A DNA stretch of 64,000 bases, from NCBI RefSeq assembly GCF_018398425.1, contig NZ_JADPMV010000001.1, positions 496,001 through 560,000 on the forward strand, read 5' to 3'. Below the pieces are notes generated by a model. That model worked only from the letters and a program-made list of their open reading frames with translations. It had not been told where the DNA came from and ran no database searches. Position numbers and translations under genes: made by a program. Positions 8,749 to 20,389 of this stretch are shown in pieces (position 1 is the first letter of the stretch; every line of letters starts with the position of its first letter). This DNA is from Pseudomonas lalucatii (GTDB taxonomy: Bacteria; Pseudomonadota; Gammaproteobacteria; Pseudomonadales; Pseudomonadaceae).

Positions 8749-9483
8749 ATGTCGCAATGCGCCAACCTGCGTGCACCTCATCAAGCCCACTGCAAGGACT
8801 GCAGCCTAGCGCCGCTGTGCCTGCCGCTCTCGTTGAATCTCGAGGACATGGACGCCCTCGATGAGATCGTCAAGCGCGGCCGGCCGCTGAAGAAAGGCGA
8901 ATTCCTGTTCCGCCAGGGCGATGCCTTCGGCTCGGTGTTCGCCGTACGCTCCGGAGCCCTGAAGACCTTCAGCCTGAGCGACGCCGGCGAAGAACAGGTC
9001 ACGGGGTTCTACCTGCCCAGCGAACTGGTCGGCCTGTCCGGCATGGACACCGAGAGCTATCCGGTCTCGGCCCAGGCCCTGGAAACCACCTCGGTCTGCG
9101 AGATTCCCTTCGAGCGTCTCGACGAGCTGTCCGTGCAGCTGCCGCAGCTGCGACGCCAGCTGATGCGCGTGATGAGCCGGGAGATTCGCGAGGACCAGCA
9201 GATGCTGCTACTACTGTCGAAGAAAACCGCCGACGAGCGCATCGCCACCTTTCTGGTCAACCTCTCGGCGCGCTTTCGCGCCCGCGGCTTCTCCGCCCAG
9301 CAGTTCCGCCTGGCCATGTCGCGCAACGAGATCGGCAACTACCTGGGACTGGCCGTGGAAACCGTGTCGCGGGTATTCACCCGCTTCCAGCACAGCAAGC
9401 TGATCGAGGCCGAGGGCAAGGAGGTGCATATTCTCGACCCCATCGAACTCTGCGCCCTGGCCGGCGGCAAGCTCGACGGCTGA
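8749..9483 (+). CDS. anr: Anaerobic transcriptional regulator ANR (FNR family)
   Basis: A 244-residue CRP/FNR-family regulator that senses oxygen through a 4Fe-4S cluster and activates cbb3, hemN and denitrification-type genes. Cluster ligands are C15, C18, C24 and C117. The cyclic-nucleotide-binding-like fold spans about 30-145. The C-terminal helix-turn-helix (about 190-225) contains the recognition segment [11 protein letters not shown], with the Glu, Ser and Arg used to read TTGAT half-sites. The start at 8749 is preceded by a short purine-rich stretch. The hemN-anr neighbourhood is standard for pseudomonads. Confidence 0.96.
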
Positions 9484-9544
9484 GCCCTGTACGGCTGCCT
9501 AGCCGGGCCGGCCACTACCCTTCGTAAGCCGTAGGAGTCCCGCG

Positions 9545-10093
9545 ATGATCTTCGACGAGTTCAGCATCAAGACCCTGGTCCGCCCGGTAGCCGACTTCCC
9601 CAAGCCCGGGGTGACCTTCCGTGACATCACGCCCCTGTTCCAGTCGCCACGGGCGCTGCGCATGGTCGCCGACAGCTTCATCCAGCGCTATGTCGAGGCC
9701 GAATTCAGCCATATCGGCGCCATGGACGCCCGCGGCTTCCTTATCGGCTCGATCATCGCCTACGAGCTGAACAAGCCGCTCATCCTCTTTCGCAAGCAGG
9801 GCAAGCTGCCGGCCGAAGTGCTCAGCGAAGCCTACACGACCGAGTACGGCGAGGCCTTCCTCGAGGTGCACGCCGACAGCCTGTGCGACGGCGACAGCAT
9901 CCTGATCTTCGATGACCTGATCGCCACCGGCGGCACCCTGCTGGCCGCCGCGCAACTGGTGCGGCGCATGGGCGCGCGCATCCACGAGGCCGCGGCGATC
10001 ATCGACCTGCCGGATCTGGGCGGCTCGCAGAAGCTGCAGGATATCGGCATCCCGACCTTTACCCTGACCGCCTTCGCCCTGAACGAGCGCTGA
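9545..10093 (+). CDS. apt: Adenine phosphoribosyltransferase
   Basis: A 182-residue type I phosphoribosyltransferase that makes AMP from adenine and PRPP. The PRPP-binding motif [14 protein letters not shown] is at about 119-132, and the N-terminal [15 protein letters not shown] stretch is diagnostic of Apt. It starts 61 bases after anr on the same strand. It ends facing the convergent gene at 10133, with no strong terminator between them. Confidence 0.96.
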
Positions 10094-10132
10094 GGAAGCG
10101 GTATCGGCTCGGCCCGCCGGGCGCGCCTGCGC

Positions 10133-10831
10133 CTATTCGAAATAGGCCTGGAAGAAGCGATCCAGCTCGCCCTCGTACTGCTCCAGGGAATACAGCGTAT
10201 CGGCCGCCAGCAGGTCGAGCAGGACCATGCCGTTGGGCCCGGAGTCCTCGACGACCGCGGCGCGCAGCCGCCCGCTCATGCCCAGATTGACCTGGCGCAG
10301 GTTACGGTAGACCTCGCGCAACCCGCTCATGGACCAGTCCGCCGACAGGCCCCGCTGCTGACGCAGGTACTGGCCCAGCAGGTAGGAGCCGAAGACCCGG
10401 AAAAGGGTTTCCTCGGTGCCGCTGAACGGCTGGTGGAACCAGGCCATGGCCTTCAGCATCCGCGTGTGCGGACACCCAGAAGTAGCGCCCAGGGCGCCGA
10501 GCAGCGAGCCCAAGGCACGCTGCAAGGTGGTGTGTTGCCGAGTCTCACGCCCGCGCCAGTGCACCTCGACCTCCACCCTTTCGTAGGATGGCGACTGCGC
10601 CAGCAGCTCCACCGGCGCCACCAGCGCCTGCGCGAAGGGGCAACGCGGCGACTGCTCCGGCCGCAATGGGCAATGCCGGCACTGATGGAATTCCAGCCGC
10701 GTCCAGTCGGGCAGTGCCGTGCCCTGCTCGGTCGTGCCAGGTTGCAGTGCGATCCGGTGATCCCAACTGCGGCCATCGGCGAAGTGAAACCTGTAGAGGA
10801 TGACCGAGTCATCCGCGGCCTCTAGATCCAT
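10133..10831 (-). CDS. Conserved hypothetical protein with a CxxC...C cluster
   Basis: A 232-residue protein I cannot assign to a named functional family. The N-terminal third looks beta-rich (VILYRFHFADGRSWDHRIAL). A compact cysteine group, C51, C54 and C64 (QCRHCPLRPEQSPRCPF), followed by C120, could bind zinc or an iron-sulfur cluster. The C-terminal half is probably helical. No signal peptide or membrane helix is seen. The start is supported by AGGTTAG upstream. It faces away from the histidine kinase gene and converges on apt. A similar unannotated gene near anr/apt in related Pseudomonas is recalled, not checked. Confidence 0.75.
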   Translation of the reverse strand: MDLEAADDSVILYRFHFADGRSWDHRIALQPGTTEQGTALPDWTRLEFHQCRHCPLRPEQSPRCPFAQALVAPVELLAQSPSYERVEVEVHWRGRETRQHTTLQRALGSLLGALGATSGCPHTRMLKAMAWFHQPFSGTEETLFRVFGSYLLGQYLRQQRGLSADWSMSGLREVYRNLRQVNLGMSGRLRAAVVEDSGPNGMVLLDLLAADTLYSLEQYEGELDRFFQAYFE

Positions 10832-10989
10832 GGTCTAACCTGATCGTCGAGCGGGGTGAGAATTTAGGGTAGCAGCTTGCCGGCGTAGCCATTGTCCAGG
10901 CGTCATTCTCATGTCGCCTGACATTCGGAGTTGGCCATAGGACGCACTTAACCGCCCCCTCACTCTCTGTCGCAACAAAGGAGCTGGCG

Positions 10990-12276
10990 ATGGACGACAG
11001 GCAGAGCGGCTTGACCAGCGGACTGGTCGAGCAAATCGACATCGGGGTGATCATCCTCGACTCCAGCTTACGCATCCAGTACTGGAACAGCTTCATCAGC
11101 CAGTGCAGCGGCAAGGTCCTGGAGCAGGCCCGCCACCTGCCATTCACCCAGATCTTCCCGGAAGCCGACACGCGCCACCTGCATCGCATGCTGGTGCAGG
11201 TCCGCGATCATGGCCAGCACGTCTATAGCCAGTGGCGCGACAACCCCTACCTGATCCATCTGCCTTACAAGCCGGCGAGCACGCCAGGCGCCCTGATGCT
11301 GCAGAACACCCTGCTGCTCCCCTTTCACGACCCGGAGGGTCGACAGTGCTTCGGCCTGTTGCTGTACGACAGCACGGATTTGGCGCGCCGCGACGAACAG
11401 CTGGACGCCGTGCTCGAGACGTTGAGTGGCAAACAGGCCGAACGGGAACAGCTGCTCAAGAAACTGGAAAAAGCCAACAGCCAACTCCTGCAATCGGAGA
11501 AGCTCGCGGCCATCGGCCAGCTCGCCGCCGGCGTGGCCCATGAGATCAACAATCCGATCGGTTACGTGTTCTCCAACCTCAAGACCCTGGCCGGCTATGT
11601 TCAGGATCTGCTGCACATAGTCGATGCGGTGGACGGCGCCGCCAACCTCGACGAATTGCACCGCCTCAAGCGCAGCATGGAATATGACTATATCCGCAAC
11701 GATGTAGAGGCCTTGATCGGCGAATCCGAGGACGGCATCGACCGGGTCAAGAAGATCATCTCCGCGCTCAAGGATTTCTCCCACATGGAGGAAGAGGCCT
11801 TTCGCTGCGCCGACCTGCACCAGGGCCTGGACAGCACCCTCAACGTGGTCAACAACGAGCTGAAGTACAAGGCCGAGATCGTCAAGGAATACGGCCAGTT
11901 GCCGGAGGTGGAGTGCATCCCCTCGCAGATCAATCAGGTGCTGATGAACCTGTTGGTCAACGCGGCCCATGCCATGGAGCAGTTCGGCCGCATCACCCTG
12001 CGCAGCAATCAGGAAGGCGACTGGGTCTGGCTGGAGGTCGAGGACACCGGCAAGGGCATCGAGCCCCACCTGCTCAACCGCATCTACGAACCCTTCTTCA
12101 CCACCAAGCCAGTCGGCAAGGGCACGGGGCTGGGCCTGGCCCTGTCCTACAGCATCGTGCAGAAACACCACGGCCGTATAGAGGTCAGCAGCGAGCTCGG
12201 CCAGGGTACGCGCTTTCGCATCTGGCTTCCTGTCCAACAACCCACTCCAGACAGTGCAGGCAGCCCGCCGCTATGA
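10990..12276 (+). CDS. PAS-domain sensor histidine kinase
   Basis: A 428-residue soluble histidine kinase with no evident membrane helix, so it senses a cytoplasmic cue. An N-terminal PAS domain (about 15-135; QIDIGVIILDSSLRIQYWN) is followed by a coiled coil (about 140-175), the dimerisation/phosphoacceptor helix with H184 (GVAHEINNPIGYV), and a HATPase domain with N, G1 (DTGKGI), F and G2 (GKGTGLGLAL) boxes. AAGGAGC precedes the ATG. Its stop overlaps the next gene's start in an ATGA, so it is the obvious kinase for the downstream receivers. It resembles the kinase paired with the YN-GYP regulator in P. aeruginosa (recalled as PA2571). Confidence 0.9.
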   Translation: MDDRQSGLTSGLVEQIDIGVIILDSSLRIQYWNSFISQCSGKVLEQARHLPFTQIFPEADTRHLHRMLVQVRDHGQHVYSQWRDNPYLIHLPYKPASTPGALMLQNTLLLPFHDPEGRQCFGLLLYDSTDLARRDEQLDAVLETLSGKQAEREQLLKKLEKANSQLLQSEKLAAIGQLAAGVAHEINNPIGYVFSNLKTLAGYVQDLLHIVDAVDGAANLDELHRLKRSMEYDYIRNDVEALIGESEDGIDRVKKIISALKDFSHMEEEAFRCADLHQGLDSTLNVVNNELKYKAEIVKEYGQLPEVECIPSQINQVLMNLLVNAAHAMEQFGRITLRSNQEGDWVWLEVEDTGKGIEPHLLNRIYEPFFTTKPVGKGTGLGLALSYSIVQKHHGRIEVSSELGQGTRFRIWLPVQQPTPDSAGSPPL

Positions 12277-13625
12277 ACGCCCCGCTCCTGGCGCACGACG
12301 CCACCCTCCTTCTGGTCGATGACGAGGAGAACATCCTCAAGAGCTTGCGTCGCCTGCTGCGCCAGGAACCCTACGAAATTCTCATGGCCGACGGCGCCGG
12401 ACAGGCCCTGCAGCTGCTAGAGGCGCATCGGGTTGACCTGGTGATCTCCGACGCGCGCATGCCGGGCATGGATGGCGCCAGCCTGCTTAGCGAGGTCCAG
12501 CAGCGCTGGCCGGAGTGCATGCGTATCCTGCTCACCGGACATGCCGACATCGGTACCACCATCAAGGCGATCAACCAGGGCCAGATTTTCCGCTACATCA
12601 GCAAGCCCTGGGACGATGACGAGCTGCGCCTGATCATTCGCCAGGCCCTGGCCTTCCAGCACTCCGAACGGGAACGCCAGCGCCTGGAGCGCCTCACCCA
12701 CGAGCAGAACCAGCACCTGCAGGAGCTCAACACCACCCTGGAACAACGGGTGCGCAGCCGCACGGCTGAGCTGCAGCAAACCGCCGACATGCTCGACATG
12801 GCCTATGAAGAGCTCAAGCGCAGCTACGTGACGGCGACCGAGGTGTTTTCCAGCCTGGTCAACCTGCGCATTCCACGGGATAAGCAAAGCAACGGCGCGG
12901 TCATCGCACTGGTGCGCGCCTACGCCGAACAGCATGGCCTGGGCGAGGCTTCCAGCCGCGACCTGGCGATGGCGGCCGCGCTGTACAACGTCGGCAAGCT
13001 GACCTGGAGCGACAGCCTGCTCAACAGCCCGGCCGACCTGCTCTACAAGCACGAGCGCGAGCGCTATCGGCAATACCCGGTGCTCGGCGAAAGCCTGCTG
13101 ATGAGCCTAGAGCCGCTGCAGGATGCCGCCCGCCTGATCCGCCATCATCAGGAGCGCTGGGACGGTGGCGGCTTTCCCGACCGGCTCAAGGGCGAGGCCA
13201 TCCCCCTGGGCGCACGCCTACTCAAGCTGGCGGTCGACTTCATCGAGTTGCAATGCGGGCTGGTGCTCGAGCGCAAGCTGAATCGCGACGAGGCCCTGCT
13301 GCTGGTGCAGAAGTACAGCGGCAAGCTCTACGACCCGCAACTGTGCGAAAGCTTCATCGAACTCTGCACCACCCTGGCCCCCGACCTGACCCTGGCCGAC
13401 CCCAGCATCCTGGTGCTCGACACCCGTCGCCTGATGCCAGACATGCGGCTGGCGCGCGACCTCAGAGCCGACAACGGCACATTGCTGCTCAACGAGGGCA
13501 AACAGCTGACCCAGGCGCTGATCAACAAGTTGATCACCTTCGAGGAAAGCGAAGGCGCGCAATACACCCTGTTCGTGCGATCCCCGGACCCCACTGGCGC
13601 GCCCCTTCAGGAGACGATCCGATGA
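12273..13625 (+). CDS. Response regulator with degenerate HD-GYP domain (YN...GFP variant)
   Basis: A 450-residue RpfG-like protein. The receiver domain (about 10-130) has phosphoacceptor D60 and the segment FRYISKPW. A coiled coil (about 135-185) follows, then an HD-GYP-like domain (about 190-375). The metal-binding HD pair is replaced by Y238-N239 (AALYNVGKL), and GYP reads GFP at 300-302 within HHQERWDGGGFP. Catalytic c-di-GMP hydrolysis is therefore doubtful; a binding or scaffolding role is likely. A P. aeruginosa YN-GYP protein (recalled as PA2572) is the known parallel. Four-base overlaps join it to the genes on both sides. Confidence 0.9.
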   Translation: MNAPLLAHDATLLLVDDEENILKSLRRLLRQEPYEILMADGAGQALQLLEAHRVDLVISDARMPGMDGASLLSEVQQRWPECMRILLTGHADIGTTIKAINQGQIFRYISKPWDDDELRLIIRQALAFQHSERERQRLERLTHEQNQHLQELNTTLEQRVRSRTAELQQTADMLDMAYEELKRSYVTATEVFSSLVNLRIPRDKQSNGAVIALVRAYAEQHGLGEASSRDLAMAAALYNVGKLTWSDSLLNSPADLLYKHERERYRQYPVLGESLLMSLEPLQDAARLIRHHQERWDGGGFPDRLKGEAIPLGARLLKLAVDFIELQCGLVLERKLNRDEALLLVQKYSGKLYDPQLCESFIELCTTLAPDLTLADPSILVLDTRRLMPDMRLARDLRADNGTLLLNEGKQLTQALINKLITFEESEGAQYTLFVRSPDPTGAPLQETIR

Positions 13626-14152
13626 TCAAGATCCAACTGGTGGACGACGAGCCCCAGATCCTCAAGTCCTTGCAGCGCCTGCTCCACCCACAGGACTGGC
13701 AGGTACATGCCTTCGACGATGTATACCAGGCGCTGGACGCGCTCACCGAGCATGAATACGCGGTGATCCTGTCCGACTACCGCATGCCCCACCTGGACGG
13801 CATCACCTACCTGAAGTTCGCCAAGCAGCGCCAGCCCGAGGCGGTGCGCCTGATGCTCACCGGCCATGGCGACCGCCAGTCGATGATCCAGGCCATCAAC
13901 GAGGCGGAGATCTACCGCTTCATTTCCAAGCCCTGGGAAGACTACGAGGTGGAAGCGGCCCTGCGCAGCGCCATCGATCTCCACCTGCTGCGCAGCGAGA
14001 ATCAACGCCTGCTGACGCAACTGCGCGCGCAACAGAGCGCCCTGGACCGTCAGCAGCAGGAGCTGCTGCGGTTGGAAACGGAGAACCCCGGCCTGACCCG
14101 CGTGTTACGCGACGCCGACGGCTCCATCCTCATCGAAGACAGCGACGCATGA
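13622..14152 (+). CDS. Receiver-only response regulator with C-terminal coiled coil
   Basis: A 176-residue protein with one receiver domain (about 1-120): acidic pocket DDE, phosphoacceptor D52 (VILSDYRMPHLDG), conserved Thr (MLTGHGD) and Lys in FISKPW. A helical tail rich in Gln/Leu (about 125-160) may dimerise. There is no DNA-binding or enzymatic domain, so it probably acts by protein contact or as a phosphate sink. It overlaps the preceding gene by ATGA. Its receiver resembles those of the flanking YN-GFP and GGDEF-EAL proteins. Confidence 0.88.
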   Translation: MIKIQLVDDEPQILKSLQRLLHPQDWQVHAFDDVYQALDALTEHEYAVILSDYRMPHLDGITYLKFAKQRQPEAVRLMLTGHGDRQSMIQAINEAEIYRFISKPWEDYEVEAALRSAIDLHLLRSENQRLLTQLRAQQSALDRQQQELLRLETENPGLTRVLRDADGSILIEDSDA

Positions 14153-14251
14153 CCAGGCCCAGCGCCTGCCCGCCGCCGTCCAGGCCCCCTTGCGCACGAC
14201 TGTGACGTCTCGCCGACCGGTGCCGCCCAAGACGAAGGAGCGTCCTACCCC

Positions 14252-17005
14252 ATGAACAATGCACGCCCTCTGCTTCTGCTGTTGATCGCTGAGAGTGAGG
14301 ATGACTACCAGCACATTCGCCGGCTGCTCGGCGAGGAGAAGCTGGTGCACCGGCGCCTGGAATGGGCCGGCAGCCTCGACCAGGCTGCCGAGACTCGGGA
14401 CTCGCCCCTTGAGCCCCGTATCTGGCCCCATCGCCTGAAGAGCGGCGATGAGATCTTGGCAGAGGTGACGGTCAGCGCCCTAGACCTCGAGGGGCTCCCG
14501 GCCGCTCTCGCCGCGCTCAGGGACGTAACCCCGGGGGCTCAGTCTGACCGAGCGGCACAGCGCAAGAATCGGGATTGTCAGCAATTGCTGAGCGACAGCC
14601 GCGACGCCATCCTGCTGGTCGATAGGCACGACACCGTGCGCTACGCCAACCCGGCCGCGGAAACCCTGCTCGCCGCCCCCCTCGACGAACTGCTGCGCCA
14701 GCCCCTGGGGCTGGCCCTGGAACCTGGCCGATTGCACGAGTGCGCCTTGCCGTTGGCCAACGGTGAGACGCTCAACCTAGAGGTGCAGTGTTCGCGGACC
14801 GAGTGGGATGGCCAGGACATGCGCCTGCTCCTGCTCCGGGACATCAGCGCTCGCCTCGCGTCGGACAAACAGCTACGCCTACTGCGCCGCTGCCTCGAGA
14901 GCAGCTACCAGGGCGTGCTGATCTGCGATGCCCATGCCCAGGATCTGCCGACCCTCTACGTCAACCCGGCGTTCGAGCGCATCACCGGCTACAGCGCCGC
15001 GGAGGTCATGGGACGCAATTGCCGCTTCCTCCAGGGCGCCGAGCGCGACCAGGCCGCAGCCGCCGAGATACGCCAGGGGCTGCAGGAACAACGCGAGATC
15101 CACGTAGTGCTGCGCAACTTCCGCAAGGACGGCAGCCCCTTCTGGAACGCCCTGTACATCGTCCCCGTACCCGACGAGCAGGGCCGCATCGGTCACTACC
15201 TCGGCATCCAGAACGACATATCCGAACAGAAGCGCTTCGAAAGCCAATTGGCCTACAACGCCAGCCACGACGTGCTCACCGGCCTGCCCAATCGTTCCCT
15301 GCTGGAAGATCGCCTGAACCAGGGCTGCCAGATCAGCCGGCGCTACCGACGCAGCCTGGCGGTGCTGTTCATCGACCTGGACGGCTTCAAACCGATCAAC
15401 GACAACATGGGCCACAGCGTCGGCGACCAGATCCTGGTGGAGCTCGCCCGGCGCATGAATCAGCAGGTGCGTCCCGGCGACACAGTGGCGCGCCTGGGCG
15501 GCGACGAGTTCGTCATCGTTCTGCCAGACCTGGCCCGCGAAGAGGATGCCTTGCTGGTGGCGGACCGCATCATGGCCAGCATCGCCCAGCCCTACAGGGT
15601 GGCCGGCATCGAGATGCACATCACCGGCAGCATCGGCATCGCCCTCAACGACGGCTCCATCGATCAGCCCAGCGTACTCATCCAGCAGGCCGACCTGGCC
15701 ATGTACAAGGCCAAACAGCAGGGACGCAACAACTACCAGTGCTACACCCAGGACCTCGACCAGCGGGTCAGCGAGCGCACCACGTTGCGCAGCGAGCTGC
15801 AGAAGGCCATCGAGGCCGAAGCCTTCCAGCTCTACTACCAACCACAGATCGAGGGCCGCAGTGGCCGGGTCGTGGGTTACGAGGCACTGCTGCGCTGGCA
15901 GCACGCCGACCGCGGCTTCATCTCGCCGGCCCAGTTCGTCCCGGTGGCCGAGAATACCGGACAGATCATCCCGCTCAGCGAGTGGGTCCTGCGCACGGCC
16001 TGCCGCCAGGCGCGCGCGCTCCTCGACCAGGGCTGGACCGGCACTACCCTGGCCGTCAACGTCTCGCCGGTGCAGTTCCAGAGGGCCAACTTCGTCGAGA
16101 GCGTGCTCAGGGTACTGGAAGAGAGCGGACTGCCAGCAGAGCTGCTGGAACTGGAGCTCACCGAGGCCGTGCTGCTGGATAACGCCGAACGGGCGATCTT
16201 CGTCCTACAGGAGCTGAAGGACCTGGGCGTGCATATCGCCATCGACGATTTCGGCAGCGGCTTCTCCAGCCTGAGCTACCTGAAGCGCCTGCCGATCGAC
16301 AAGCTCAAGATCGACCGCTCCTTCGTCCAGGAAGTGATCAGCGACAGCACCGACGCGGCGATCTCCCTGGGCATCATCTCCATGGCCCACCACCTCAAAC
16401 TCAAGGTGGTCGCCGAGGGCGTGGAAACCGAGCCCCAGTACGCCTTTCTGAAGAAGAACCGCTGCGACGAATTCCAGGGCTACTACTTCGCCAAGCCCAT
16501 GCCGCTGTCGCTGCTGCAGGAGTTTCTTCGCGCCCAGCGCGACAGCCGGCAACTGCAGCAGCCCGACCCCAGCGGCGAACGCAACGCCCAGACCCTGCTG
16601 CTGCTCGACGACGAGGAAAACATCCTGCGTGCCTTGACCCGCGTGCTGCGCCGCGACGGCTATAGGATTCTCTCCGCCAGCCATGCCCAGGAGGCCTTCG
16701 CCCTGCTGGCCAAGCACGAGGTGCAAGTGATCCTCTCGGACCAGCGCATGCCGGAAATGAATGGCACCGAGTTCCTCAGCCGGGTCAAGGATCTCTACCC
16801 CGCCACCATCCGCATCGTGCTCTCGGGTTATACCGACCTGAAGTCCGTCACCGACGCGATCAATCAGGGCGCCATCTACAAGTTCCTCACCAAGCCCTGG
16901 GACGACGCCCAACTGCGCACCACCGTGGCCCAGGCGTTCCAGCACTACAGCCTGGCGCAGGACAAGGATCAAGGCGCGGCAGCGCCGGACCACCAGCCGT
17001 CCTGA
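14252..17005 (+). CDS. PAS-LOV-GGDEF-EAL-receiver protein (cyclic-di-GMP turnover, probable blue-light sensor)
   Basis: A 917-residue multidomain protein. Residues 1-45 resemble the first part of a receiver. A PAS fragment and a PAS domain (about 105-200) follow. A second PAS (about 205-335) has LOV hallmarks: GRNCRFLQG with photoactive-type C257, then Asn in LRNFRKDG, Asn in PFWNAL and Gln in LGIQNDIS, the flavin-contacting positions. GGDEF is intact at 416-420, with an RxxD inhibitory site (407-410). The EAL domain starts EALLRW at 544-549 and keeps IDDFGSG. A C-terminal receiver has phosphoacceptor D830. It begins 99 bases after the receiver-only gene, probably in the same unit. Confidence 0.92.
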   Translation: MNNARPLLLLLIAESEDDYQHIRRLLGEEKLVHRRLEWAGSLDQAAETRDSPLEPRIWPHRLKSGDEILAEVTVSALDLEGLPAALAALRDVTPGAQSDRAAQRKNRDCQQLLSDSRDAILLVDRHDTVRYANPAAETLLAAPLDELLRQPLGLALEPGRLHECALPLANGETLNLEVQCSRTEWDGQDMRLLLLRDISARLASDKQLRLLRRCLESSYQGVLICDAHAQDLPTLYVNPAFERITGYSAAEVMGRNCRFLQGAERDQAAAAEIRQGLQEQREIHVVLRNFRKDGSPFWNALYIVPVPDEQGRIGHYLGIQNDISEQKRFESQLAYNASHDVLTGLPNRSLLEDRLNQGCQISRRYRRSLAVLFIDLDGFKPINDNMGHSVGDQILVELARRMNQQVRPGDTVARLGGDEFVIVLPDLAREEDALLVADRIMASIAQPYRVAGIEMHITGSIGIALNDGSIDQPSVLIQQADLAMYKAKQQGRNNYQCYTQDLDQRVSERTTLRSELQKAIEAEAFQLYYQPQIEGRSGRVVGYEALLRWQHADRGFISPAQFVPVAENTGQIIPLSEWVLRTACRQARALLDQGWTGTTLAVNVSPVQFQRANFVESVLRVLEESGLPAELLELELTEAVLLDNAERAIFVLQELKDLGVHIAIDDFGSGFSSLSYLKRLPIDKLKIDRSFVQEVISDSTDAAISLGIISMAHHLKLKVVAEGVETEPQYAFLKKNRCDEFQGYYFAKPMPLSLLQEFLRAQRDSRQLQQPDPSGERNAQTLLLLDDEENILRALTRVLRRDGYRILSASHAQEAFALLAKHEVQVILSDQRMPEMNGTEFLSRVKDLYPATIRIVLSGYTDLKSVTDAINQGAIYKFLTKPWDDAQLRTTVAQAFQHYSLAQDKDQGAAAPDHQPS

Positions 17006-17136
17006 GGCGCCCGACCTTGGCGACTGTGCCAGGCCGAGCCTGCTTGGCCAGGATATCGCCCTTCATGGCTATCGCCGAACCCCGAGCTGCCGCCCGGGAG
17101 CGCCCACTCGCACATCCGGGCCGCGCGACAGACGCC

Positions 17137-17736
17137 CTACAGCTGGATAGGTCGCCGACCGGCGATCGAATGGGCCAAGGTGCCGCCGTCGACCAGCTCG
17201 AGCTCGCCGCCGAGCGGCATGCCATGGGCGATACGCGAGGCGACCAGGCCCTTGCCCGCCAACAGCTGAGCGATGTAGTGCGCGGTGGCCTCGCCTTCTA
17301 CCGTCGGGTTGGTGGCGAGTATCACCTCGCTGAAGTGCCCCTCGCCGACCCGCACCAGCAACTCGGGAATGCCGATGGCTTCCGGGCCCAAGCCATCGAG
17401 CGGCGACAGATGGCCCTTGAGCACGAAATAGCGGCCGCGATAGCCGGTCTGCTCCACCGCATAGACGTCCATCGGCCCCTCCACCACGCACAGCAGGCTG
17501 TCGTCGCGACGTGGATCGAGGCAGCTCTGGCACAGTTCGTCCTCGCTCAGGGTGCGACACTGCTTGCAATAGCCAACTCCTTCCATGGCCTGGGTCAAGG
17601 CCTGGGCCAGGCGCAAGGCGCCACTGCGATCACGCTCCAGCAGGTGCAGCGCCATGCGCTGGGCGGTCTTCTGCCCGACGCCCGGCAGGACGCGCAGGGA
17701 GTCGATCAGGTGACGGATCAAGGGGCTGAAGCTCAT
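17137..17736 (-). CDS. recR: Recombination mediator protein RecR
   Basis: A 199-residue RecFOR-pathway protein that helps load RecA at single-strand gaps. It contains the helix-hairpin-helix region ([16 protein letters not shown]), the four-Cys zinc motif [16 protein letters not shown] and a Toprim domain beginning [15 protein letters not shown]. Length is normal. It is the last gene of the dnaX-ybaB-recR set, a conserved bacterial arrangement. Confidence 0.97.
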
Positions 17737-17902
17737 AGGTTACTCGCAAGCAACAGGCGTGTTAGCCACGCCTCGACTGTTGGACCACTACTGCTGCCAC
17801 GCGGGCAGACGGTACGCAGAACGGGCCACAGGCAGGCGTACCGGCGACCAGCGAGCCTCCCGCGCCTGCATGCGACGCCGCCCCGCGTGCTGGACGTTCC
17901 GG

Positions 17903-18229
17903 TCAGAAGGGCATCTTGAAGCCGGGTGGCAGCTGCATGCCGGCGGTCATGCCGGCCATCTTGTCCTGGCTGTTCTGCTCGACCTTGCGCACCGCATCGT
18001 TCACCGCGGCGGCGATCAGGTCTTCGAGAATCTCCTTGTCTTCCTGCATCAGGCTGTCGTCCAGGCTGACGCGCTTGACGTCGTGCCGACCGGTCATCAC
18101 CACGCTCACCAGGCCCGCGCCGGACTGACCGGTCACTTCGGCATTCGCCAGCTCTTCCTGCATCTTCTGCATCTTTTCTTGCATCTGCTGGGCCTGCTTC
18201 ATCAGGCCGGCCATGCCACCTTTCATCAT
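17903..18229 (-). CDS. ybaB: YbaB/EbfC-family nucleoid-associated protein
   Basis: A 108-residue DNA-binding nucleoid protein with a Met/Gln-rich helical N-terminus ([19 protein letters not shown]) and the conserved [23 protein letters not shown] core. The dimer binds DNA without strong sequence preference. It lies between dnaX and recR, with 87 bases to the former and 166 to the latter, as in most gamma-proteobacteria. Confidence 0.95.
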
Positions 18230-18316
18230 GGTGCTAGTCCTCGGTAATCAGGGGTCATTCAATACGACCTGTTCACAGTAAAGGGCGTTTCCCACGCCCG
18301 CCACCCCATACAGGCC

Positions 18317-20389
18317 CTAGGTATCCACCGGTTCTATGCTGTCCGCCCGGATGCTCGCGGCGAACTGCTGGATCATCTGTTGTACCAGCGGGTCGTTGTG
18401 GATCGACGCCTCGGCCTCGCGCTGACGGCTGGCTCGCTTGCGTGCCGCCGCCTGGGCCGGGGTTTCCTGCTCGGGCTGGCGCAGCTCGATCTGCAGCTTC
18501 AGCTCACGCCCCAGGTGCTGGTTCAGGGCCTCATTCAGGCGACGCTGCTGGGTCGCGTTGAACAGCGCGCTGTGCCCCGGGTCCAGGTGCAGCAGCCAGT
18601 TGTCGCCCTCGGCTGAGATCAGCGTGCAGTTGGCCCCGATGCTCCCGGTCATGCCGGACAGCCCCAGCTGGGGGAAGAGCGCCAACCAGTCGGCGGCCAG
18701 GCCAGTGGCCGGCTGCGCCGCGACCGTTGGCTCCGGCTCGGCCGGCTGTGCGGTGGCGACTGAAGCGAAGTCGTAGTCGAAGGACTCGGCATCCATCTCC
18801 ACATAGTCGTAGTCGCCCGGCGGCGGTTCATCTTCGCCCTCGACCTCGGCCGGCGCATCGCTGTCGACGGTTTGCAGCGCCACGCCCCCGGGGACGGCTC
18901 GAACAGGTGCCGCCTCGACCTCGGCAGCCGCCGGCGCCGCGGCACCGACCGGGGCGGGGGCGATGGGCATAGGCTGGGGAGCCTGCTCCTCCCACGGCAG
19001 GTCGGTGACCGCCGGCGCGGCGGCCGCCGCGGTCGCAGGCGCCTCGGGCACGGTAGGCGCTGCGGACTCCGCTGCGACCTCAGGCTCGACAGGCGCCCCT
19101 ACAGGAGCGGCCGGCTGCTCCGCCAGCTGCGGCTCGGGCGGTGCTGCCGGCGCCGTGATCGGCACCTGGGACTCGCCGGCAGGGACAGGGGCGACAACAG
19201 CCGGCGCGATCCTGGCCGCGTCGGCCACTGGGTTGTTCCGGGGATCAGCAGTGGCCTGGCTAATCCCTAGCGGCTTTAGCGCCACCCTCGGCGCATCGTC
19301 GCTGTCCGCCGGGCGGAACGCCAGCATGCGCAACAGCACCATCTCGAAGCCGCTGCGCGGGTCCGGCGCCAGGGGCAGGTCGCGGCGGCCGATCAGGCCC
19401 ATCTGGTAATAGAACTGCACGTCCTCGGCCGGCAGCGCCTGGGCCAGCTGCAGCACCCGCTCGCGATCGCCCTGGCCGTTGTCCACCGCTTCCGGCAGTG
19501 CCTGGGCGATGGCCACGCGGTGCAGCACGTTGAGCATCTCCGCCAGCACGCCATTCCAGTCCGGGCCCTGCTCGGCCAGATGACGCACCGCATCGATCAG
19601 GGCGCGCGCATCACCCTCCAACAGGGCGTGCAACACGCCATACACCTGGCCGTGGTCCAGGGTGCCGAGCATGGCCCGCACATCGGCGGCCAGCACCTTG
19701 CCCTCGCCGAAGGCAATGGCCTGGTCGGTCAGGCTCATGGCGTCGCGCATCGAGCCATCGGCCGCACGGCCGAGCAGCCAGAGGGCATCCGCCTCGAAGG
19801 GGATGCTTTCGGCGGCGAGCACATGGCTGAGATGCTCGACCACCCGCTCCGGCGGCATGTTCTTCAGGGAGAACTGCAGGCAGCGCGAGAGGATGGTCAC
19901 CGGCAGTTTCTGCGGATCGGTGGTCGCCAGCAGGAACTTGACGTGCGGCGGAGGCTCTTCCAGGGTCTTGAGCAAAGCATTGAACGAGTGCGACGAGAGC
20001 ATGTGCACTTCGTCGATCAGGTAGACCTTGAAGCGCCCACGGCTCGGCGAGTACTGCACGTTGTCCAGCAGTTCGCGGGTGTCCTCGACCTTGGTGCGGC
20101 TGGCGGCGTCGACTTCGATCAGGTCGACGAAACGCCCTTCGTCGATCTCCTTGCAGATCGAGCAGACGCCGCAGGGCGTCGAGCTGATGCCGTTCTCGCA
20201 ATTCAGGCACTTGGCGATGATCCGCGCGATGGTGGTCTTGCCCACCCCGCGGGTGCCGGTGAACAGGTAGGCGTGGTGCAGCCGCTGGCTGTCGAGGGCG
20301 TTGATCAGCGCCTTGAGCACATGGGTCTGGCCGACCATTTCGCGAAACGAGCGCGGACGCCACTTGCGTGCAAGAACCTGATAACTCAT
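18317..20389 (-). CDS. dnaX: DNA polymerase III subunits gamma/tau
   Basis: A 690-residue clamp-loader ATPase. Walker A is GTRGVGKT (45-52). The zinc ligands C61, C64, C73, C76 and C79 region is CLNC...CGVCSIC, and the DEVHMLS Walker B and SRC motif follow. After the AAA+ part (to about 365) there is a long Ala/Pro/Glu-rich linker (about 380-560), then the tau-specific C-terminal domain that contacts the polymerase. I see no A-rich slippery heptamer of the E. coli type, so a programmed frameshift to gamma is not supported by sequence. Confidence 0.96.
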   Translation of the reverse strand: MSYQVLARKWRPRSFREMVGQTHVLKALINALDSQRLHHAYLFTGTRGVGKTTIARIIAKCLNCENGISSTPCGVCSICKEIDEGRFVDLIEVDAASRTKVEDTRELLDNVQYSPSRGRFKVYLIDEVHMLSSHSFNALLKTLEEPPPHVKFLLATTDPQKLPVTILSRCLQFSLKNMPPERVVEHLSHVLAAESIPFEADALWLLGRAADGSMRDAMSLTDQAIAFGEGKVLAADVRAMLGTLDHGQVYGVLHALLEGDARALIDAVRHLAEQGPDWNGVLAEMLNVLHRVAIAQALPEAVDNGQGDRERVLQLAQALPAEDVQFYYQMGLIGRRDLPLAPDPRSGFEMVLLRMLAFRPADSDDAPRVALKPLGISQATADPRNNPVADAARIAPAVVAPVPAGESQVPITAPAAPPEPQLAEQPAAPVGAPVEPEVAAESAAPTVPEAPATAAAAAPAVTDLPWEEQAPQPMPIAPAPVGAAAPAAAEVEAAPVRAVPGGVALQTVDSDAPAEVEGEDEPPPGDYDYVEMDAESFDYDFASVATAQPAEPEPTVAAQPATGLAADWLALFPQLGLSGMTGSIGANCTLISAEGDNWLLHLDPGHSALFNATQQRRLNEALNQHLGRELKLQIELRQPEQETPAQAAARKRASRQREAEASIHNDPLVQQMIQQFAASIRADSIEPVDT

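Follow-up and report, generated by a model that had tools for sequence, protein, structure and literature searches.

The analysed stretch of 64,000 nucleotides from Pseudomonas lalucatii (contig NZ_JADPMV010000001.1, positions 496,001 to 560,000; hereafter the window) carries a gene for a LOV-GGDEF-EAL-REC protein, here termed LGER, in which the available sequence evidence supports a true LOV domain in one chain with intact GGDEF, EAL and C-terminal receiver (REC) domains. The open reading frame and its motifs lie where the initial annotation of this DNA had placed them. LGER belongs to a family with recurring operon partners, among them a degenerate HD-GYP protein (YN-GFP), and, judged by comparison with relatives, the window copy has lost 159 codons in frame, a deletion whose scar now forms its N-terminus. 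We lean, by a small step beyond even chances, towards reading LGER as a REC-controlled, YN-GFP-tuned phosphodiesterase of cyclic di-GMP (c-di-GMP) that receives a light input via its LOV domain.

LOV and enzyme domains of LGER

The motif GRNCRFLQG at residues 254–262, with Cys257 inside, conforms to the LOV consensus GxNCR(F/L)LQ, and the flavin-contact positions Asn289, Asn299 and Gln320, which the initial annotation had pointed to, are occupied, as are Arg258, Gln261 and Arg274. The roles of N289, N299, Q320, R258 and R274 (flavin contacts, phosphate-binding Arg) are those we assume from YtvA and phototropin. A search with the LOV domain alone gave 150 different PDB sequences at E ≤ 1e-6, the best being 9vf7 (3.6e-35), the alignment with which shows GRNCRFLQG; among the best 60 of the 150, 9vf7 was followed by 7r5n, 5luv, 3sw1, aureochromes, the blue-light photoreceptor 2mwg/2pr5 and phototropins, and entries titled ‘sensory box’, ‘PAS/PAC’ or ‘hybrid kinase’ are presumably LOV domains as well. 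The NCBIfam model YtvA_fam covers residues 210–335 at 9.3e-40, with 136.7 bits relative to a cut-off of 250 and over profile positions 1–126 of 243. With solved LOV domains as the best matches, the domain appears closer to LOV than to generic PAS, in line with the earlier assignment, and would be expected to bind flavin.

The LOV motif occurs beyond chance: a 24-base LOV pattern gave three matches in the whole genome and none when reversed. Across 298 sampled genomes of the genus (one genome per species) the exact pattern was present in 79, the reversed control giving seven matches overall; an exact-pattern search of this kind misses LOV domains with other motif spellings. All three matches in the genome sit in LGER-type genes; besides the window gene these are a paralog (L039) and one more gene (L040). 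The genome search found neither PHY nor BLUF domains, so that blue light would enter the cell solely through c-di-GMP response regulators.

Pfam and residue checks agree with the earlier description of an intact GGDEF domain with I-site, an intact EAL domain and a C-terminal receiver. The GGDEF motif and the RxxD I-site are both present in the sequence (Table 1); the EAL residues E544, E638, D665, D666 and K686 are invariant and N603 is nearly invariant in 28 rows compared, and we take these positions to have metal-binding or catalytic roles. The receiver keeps the acid pair D786/D787, the acceptor D830, S858 and K881. The four top NCBIfam models for LGER all carry phosphodiesterase names, the best being DibA; membership in the DibA equivalog (NF045675) was rejected at 537.6 bits for a cut-off of 980. 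An AlphaFold2 model (mean predicted local distance difference test, pLDDT, 82.2; predicted template modelling score, pTM, 0.41) is mostly of high confidence beyond residue 100, exceptions being the EAL-REC linker and the tail; per-block pLDDT is 42–54 for residues 1–50 and 42–67 for residues 1–100. In a Foldseek search with the whole model, DosP, MorA, PA0575 and PA0861 ranked on top with whole-query TM-scores of ~0.28–0.38, values that are low because the arrangement of the LGER domains is uncertain (see pTM).

The poorly modelled N-terminus is where the initial annotation needs revision. It had spoken of a LOV domain in second PAS position, fused to the enzyme domains; the LOV assignment and the single polypeptide stand, whereas by descent the domain is the third PAS-type unit, and a plain fusion with an ordinary N-terminus was rejected. 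The sister locus of G206 (L187) keeps an intact REC-PAS-PAS-LOV-GGDEF-EAL-REC gene, and alignment with it places a gap of 477 bp (159 codons), in frame and spanning REC and the first PAS domain (PAS1), in the window gene; 9/9 aligned relatives possess the stretch that lies between LGER remnant residues 1–48 and 49–95. The Asp acceptor of the N-terminal receiver is thus deleted in the window copy and present in G206. Between window and G206, the ratio of nonsynonymous to synonymous substitution rates (dN/dS) is 0.53 for the REC remnant and 0.66 for the PAS1 remnant, compared with 0.41 and 0.24 for the same stretches in the intact orthologs of G206 and G159; with fewer than 50 codons per stretch and a ratio that also averages the time preceding the deletion, faster change of the remnant is suggestive only. 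For the remaining domains the ratio is 0.21 (LOV), 0.08 (GGDEF), 0.15 (EAL) and 0.07 (REC), which indicates purifying selection from LOV to REC in the window gene.

Table 1. Features of LGER and of the genes preceding it, in window coordinates.
Feature	Position	Strand	Basis
LGER (LOV-GGDEF-EAL-REC protein), 917 aa	14252–17005	+	Open reading frame, ATG 14252 to stop 17005; Pfam domains
REC remnant, residues 1–48 (approximate), phospho-acceptor part deleted	14252–14395	+	Aligned with intact REC of G206 and nine other relatives
C-terminal strands of first PAS, residues 49–95 (approximate)	14396–14536	+	Fused to REC remnant via 477-bp in-frame deletion
PAS domain, non-LOV, ~residues 105–205	14564–14866	+	PF00989 (two passing stretches in LGER); PAS-like strands/helices in AlphaFold2 model
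LOV domain, residues 207–330	14870–15241	+	Pfam, NCBIfam, residue check, PDB sequence matches; pLDDT 83–94 per block
Cys257 codon, predicted flavin-adduct cysteine	15020–15022	+	Motif; Cys in 38/42 LOV-like relatives
LOV-GGDEF helical linker, residues 322–342 (21 residues)	15215–15277	+	D(I/V)(T/S)...DxL definition (PMC10396304)
GGDEF domain, residues 337–494; GGDEF 416–420, I-site R407xxD410	15260–15733	+	Pfam, residue check
EAL domain, residues 514–749; EAL 544–546; N603, E638, D665, D666, K686 conserved	15791–16498	+	
C-terminal receiver (REC), residues 783–892, phospho-acceptor D830, NosR-type	16598–16927	+	Pfam, NCBIfam, residues, kinship
Histidine kinase, 428 aa, no receiver	10990–12276	+	HATPase_c; HisKA and PAS just below Pfam cut-offs
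REC plus degenerate HD-GYP (YN-GFP), NosR family	12273–13625	+	Start overlaps kinase stop by 4 bp
Stand-alone receiver (REC1), 176 aa	13622–14152	+	Start overlaps YN-GFP gene stop by 4 bp

A family with recurring neighbours

From the 541 relatives that a scan of genome contigs yielded, the 80 best were retained; the open reading frames with GGDEF, EAL and C-terminal REC in their loci gave 54 distinct rows beyond the window. Of these rows, 42 are LOV-like and 12 are not. Among the 42, the adduct cysteine is found in 38, Asn289 in all and Asn299 in 41, with position 320 being Gln in 30, Leu in 11 and Ala in one; the exact GGDEF motif is kept in 45/54 rows, the EAL motif in 53/54 and the receiver Asp in 51/54. 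In the genus sample, an LGER query matched at E ≤ 1e-160 in 45 of the 298 genomes, many of these being GGDEF-EAL matches only. Matches above 1000 bits numbered at least 15, a lower bound since three candidates per genome were scored; they came from 12 genomes, included the window genome's own two, and carried the exact LOV pattern in 15/15 cases, one of them (G243:C64) having an internal stop.

YN-GYP genes gave a match at E ≤ 1e-90 in 141/298 genomes, and 14 of the 15 LGER genes have one on the same contig and strand, 0.6–11.1 kb lying between the matched stretches. The linked YN-GYP genes are exactly the 14 that score above 680 bits, the next best reaching 631.8 bits; PA2572 of P. aeruginosa presumably falls within this lower-scoring set (66% identity or less). 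In the fetched stretches a YN-GYP gene accompanies 19/29 near orthologs and, of 13 more distant LOV-like rows, those of L078, L081 and L082. The YN-GYP gene of locus L072 adjoins that locus's other LGER gene, not the distant LOV-like row. Outside Pseudomonas, adjacent LGER/YN-GYP pairs occur in L078 and L082, and in L106 without LOV. The combination that the initial annotation had found less familiar, a C-terminal receiver together with a kinase/YN-GFP partner, therefore turns out to be a family with recurring partners, while its statement that LOV-GGDEF-EAL proteins as such are known holds.

The partner seen in the window is real: the YN-GFP protein scores above the cut-off of the NosR model (NF053512; 585.5 versus 400 bits) and carries LYNVGKL and WDGGGFP, the catalytic His-Asp being replaced by Tyr-Asn. 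YN and GFP recur in 23/25 other YN-GYP rows of the fetched loci, the exceptions being L081 and L117. Kinase, YN-GFP protein and REC1 are 87%, 92% and 90% identical to their G206 counterparts, with dN/dS values of 0.15, 0.09 and 0.11. REC1 and LGER are separated by 99 bp on the same strand; in 10700–17300 no consensus promoter was found (shuffles, mean 0.9), and terminator-like sites numbered four versus 3.1 in shuffles. At window 9001–18500 and at the G206 locus L187 the probes found no kinase gene other than the small one; the loci of the paralog and of several relatives have a gene for a large PAS/GAF kinase between the others.

The receivers of this locus are kin. Among the 35 receivers of its own genome, the C-terminal REC of LGER matches, after itself, that of the paralog best (213.5 bits), followed by those of both YN-GYP proteins (118 and 117.6), of the third LGER-type protein (101.9) and by both stand-alone receivers (85.2 and 83.0), whereupon scores fall from 83.0 to 59.6 bits. 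Pairwise identities among the window's three receivers are 47%, 44% and 35%. Kin receivers near one kinase would suggest a shared phosphate donor.

The kinase gene has a gene for a DUF6901 protein as its neighbour on the opposite strand (window 10133–10831, −). A nitric oxide-sensing NosP operon at the LGER locus was considered and rejected: the genome search found no FIST-domain NosP beside kinase and NosR, and the single FIST (NosP-type) match of the genome (G000:C2:240405–240995) lies on another contig, in the vicinity of a PAS frame of 920 codons that matches a kinase weakly.

The genome holds two further LOV-GGDEF-EAL-REC genes, one of them with a degenerate GGDEF motif. The latter is the paralog L039:9145–12456 (match G000:C1:1493816–1496401), a full-length REC-PAS-PAS-LOV-GGDEF-EAL-REC gene with kinase, YN-GYP and REC genes of its own, whose GGDEF motif reads DSDRF, the sole case in the 54 rows. 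The tree groups the window gene with G206 and G159 and the paralog with a P. fluorescens HK44 locus, giving no support to a recent duplication of the two operons. Under the more tentative proposal of LGER as a photoreceptor response regulator, set out below, the two operons would divide the work, the window operon combining a functional GGDEF domain with a shortened input and that of the paralog a complete input with a dead GGDEF domain. The third gene, L040:2072–6720 (G000:C1, ~351–356 kb), encodes a REC-GAF-LOV-GGDEF-EAL-REC protein with 41% identity and stands directly behind a REC-CheB gene, hinting at a possible chemotaxis link; receiver frames of similar size precede the relatives in L046, L047, L062 and L072, without CheB identity being implied.

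Some relatives are remarkable for their gene structure. Giant frames of 1923–2008 codons that include LOV-GGDEF-EAL-REC (L050–L057, L060, L061, L063–L066 and L083) come directly after kinase, YN-GYP and REC genes; the first 860 residues of L050 have a PAS-GAF-PAS layout like the sensor part of the large kinase, a likeness of layout only, the two being unaligned. In P. fluorescens HK44 (L104:7329–11729) the LGER gene is broken inside EAL, the open pieces lying ~950 bp apart.

Proposed circuit and competing explanations

LGER may be pictured as a blue-light receptor that also supplies the enzyme activity at the output of a two-component circuit with several regulators. Blue light would generate a flavin-Cys257 adduct whose signal would pass through the 21-residue helical linker to the GGDEF-EAL pair; independently, the kinase would phosphorylate not only D830 but also stand-alone REC1 and the YN-GFP receiver, and the YN-GFP protein, a dead HD-GYP, would bind and tune LGER, a role like that of HnoD towards HnoB in Shewanella oneidensis. 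The net result would most likely be hydrolysis of c-di-GMP by EAL, which would increase when the two signals, light and phosphorylation, agree; GGDEF would serve as a GTP-binding regulator or conditional cyclase. That LGER, kinase and dead-enzyme regulator work jointly is suggested by neighbours mostly kept in close relatives. The stricter version, a photoreceptor response regulator on whose single c-di-GMP enzyme light and phosphate act from opposite ends, with the YN-GFP protein as a dedicated allosteric subunit, is a tentative proposal that we consider rather less probable than its negation. Integration of light, phosphorylation and c-di-GMP turnover, as foreseen in the initial annotation, remains the natural reading of the domains, with the amendment that phosphorylation is probably the core input and light an added rather than a defining one, since conservation is highest in REC and some relatives lack the cysteine or the LOV domain. 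If the reading is true, LGER would be a natural gate at which a light signal and a phosphate signal meet on one enzyme. Relatives with Ser for Cys, LOV absent or GGDEF degenerate would be natural variants that separate the inputs.

Several observations weigh against our preferred reading. With respect to light, conservation is lowest for LOV among the four domains compared: over 29 near orthologs, which are not all independent as several are close to one another, the median identity is 87% for REC, 77% for GGDEF, 75% for EAL and 71% for LOV. Cys257 is replaced in 4/42 LOV-like rows (Ser in L068 and L071, Pro in L085, Gly in L087), and L074, L075, L076 and L086 are without LOV yet retain REC and EAL; since the tree places these four among rows that have LOV, loss of LOV is likely in them. 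The 21-residue LOV-GGDEF linker is found in members without LOV too; it is therefore no mark of light control and was dropped as evidence for it. That linker class shows moderate light effects, and two LOV-GGDEF pieces with such a linker, derived from LOV-GGDEF-EAL proteins, gave no light-driven synthesis (0/2), one of them being without GGDEF residues and the other a truncation (PMC10396304). These points would favour, with the exception of the latter two constructs, a c-di-GMP enzyme run by phosphorylation, in which REC and YN-GFP set the output and a minor LOV domain may bind flavin but act as a redox or structural module. We consider such an enzyme unlikely, though the best placed of the alternatives; the near-universal retention of Cys257, Asn289 and Asn299 in LOV-like relatives and the low dN/dS of LOV relative to G206 speak against it. 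As to the variants themselves, L068:7368–10613 and L071:7371–10586 are from Halomonadaceae and keep the other checked contacts, so that natural photo-dead or semiquinone-type forms are possible there, and L074, L075, L076 and L086 are of P. syringae/viridiflava type (and Pseudomonas sp. CFII64), with GGDEF-EAL-REC and kinase and no YN-GYP gene in the locus.

Doubts of the same kind attach to the partner. The second LGER gene of G159 has no YN-GYP match nearby, and none was seen for 10/29 near orthologs (L048, L049, L058, L059, L062, L067, L069, L071, L073 and L077) in stretches reaching ~8 kb upstream; L190, a longer stretch from a contig with the same length and gene set as that of L048, has one further out. 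The fetched loci L040, L046, L047, L079, L080, L084, L085 and L087 and that of the second gene of L062 likewise show none. In P. aeruginosa, a two-hybrid assay found no contact between PA2571 and PA2572, the latter contacting a chemoreceptor (PMC3411652). The neighbours could accordingly be wired otherwise, with the C-terminal REC phosphorylated by another kinase, for example of the paralog's PAS/GAF type, and YN-GFP serving another target; in line with this, a separate large kinase adjoins LGER in the paralog and several relatives, and the REC1-LGER gap could fit a promoter, though the consensus search found none. We rate such miswiring as improbable, the small kinase being the only one found by the probes at the window and G206 loci and the receivers forming one kin group in the genome. 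Finally, loss of the N-terminal receiver makes the window LGER a non-standard family member, and decay of this copy, with the full-length paralog doing the work, would fit the REC/PAS1 deletion and the raised dN/dS of the remnants, but is the least probable explanation, given purifying selection from LOV to REC with every motif intact, a degenerate GGDEF that belongs to the paralog rather than to the window copy, a tree in which the two do not come together as recent duplicates, and a dN/dS contrast drawn from such short stretches and partly from the time before the deletion.

Relation to known systems

LOV-GGDEF-EAL proteins have a functional precedent in SL2 of Synechococcus elongatus, a blue-light-activated phosphodiesterase that, like LGER, has LOV before GGDEF-EAL (PMC8846402); the available part of that paper mentions neither a C-terminal receiver nor a YN-GYP partner, both of which belong to LGER. 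According to a 2014 review, GGDEF or GGDEF plus EAL accompanies LOV in ~18% of bacterial LOV proteins, and in 20 proteins LOV is linked to a response regulator (PMC4844311). The latter resemble LGER in having LOV and a receiver in one chain, but LOV is directly joined to the response regulator there, GGDEF/EAL proteins are counted separately, and the combination was not seen in the accessible part of the review. LadC, of the LOV-activated diguanylate cyclases, shares with LGER the LOV-GGDEF order and the 21-residue short-linker class (PMC10396304), and its dark-state structure 8c05 is a fold match of LGER at rank 23; LGER additionally has EAL and REC. For the enzyme part, the best matches by NCBIfam, PDB sequence and fold are DibA and other PAS-GGDEF-EAL phosphodiesterases (solved: DosP, MorA, PA0575 and PA0861), LGER staying under the DibA cut-off. 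None of the literature titles and abstract beginnings that were covered showed the LGER domain order together with a YN-GYP partner; tables of the 2016 LOV census (PMC4801262), outside that coverage, may list the domain order.

For the neighbourhood, PA2571/PA2572 likewise pair a kinase with a YN-GYP response regulator, one without detectable phosphodiesterase activity; PA2571 carries a receiver, whereas the window kinase has none, and the neighbour there is the chemoreceptor PA2573 (PMC3411652). In the NosP-NosK-NosR system of Burkholderia, NosK phosphorylates the degenerate HD-GYP protein NosR, which is proposed to act on a true enzyme (PMC12570481). The window YN-GFP protein exceeds the NosR model cut-off; unlike that system, the window locus has no adjoining FIST gene, and it has an adjoining target candidate, LOV-GGDEF-EAL-REC. 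Degenerate HD-GYP proteins being frequent in the genus and few targets being given in the cited literature, LGER gains interest as such a candidate. The preferred comparison is with the HnoK/HnoB/HnoD network, in which the degenerate HD-GYP protein HnoD suppresses the EAL regulator HnoB by direct contact and the inputs of kinases lift this suppression (PMC6335343). In the window and in relatives, too, a kinase is encoded together with two response regulators, one with EAL and one with a degenerate HD-GYP domain, with the difference that the EAL regulator LGER adds LOV and GGDEF to the arrangement of HnoB and has its REC at the C-terminus. By analogy, the best model for the LGER locus would be a light-gated counterpart of the HnoK/HnoB/HnoD network.

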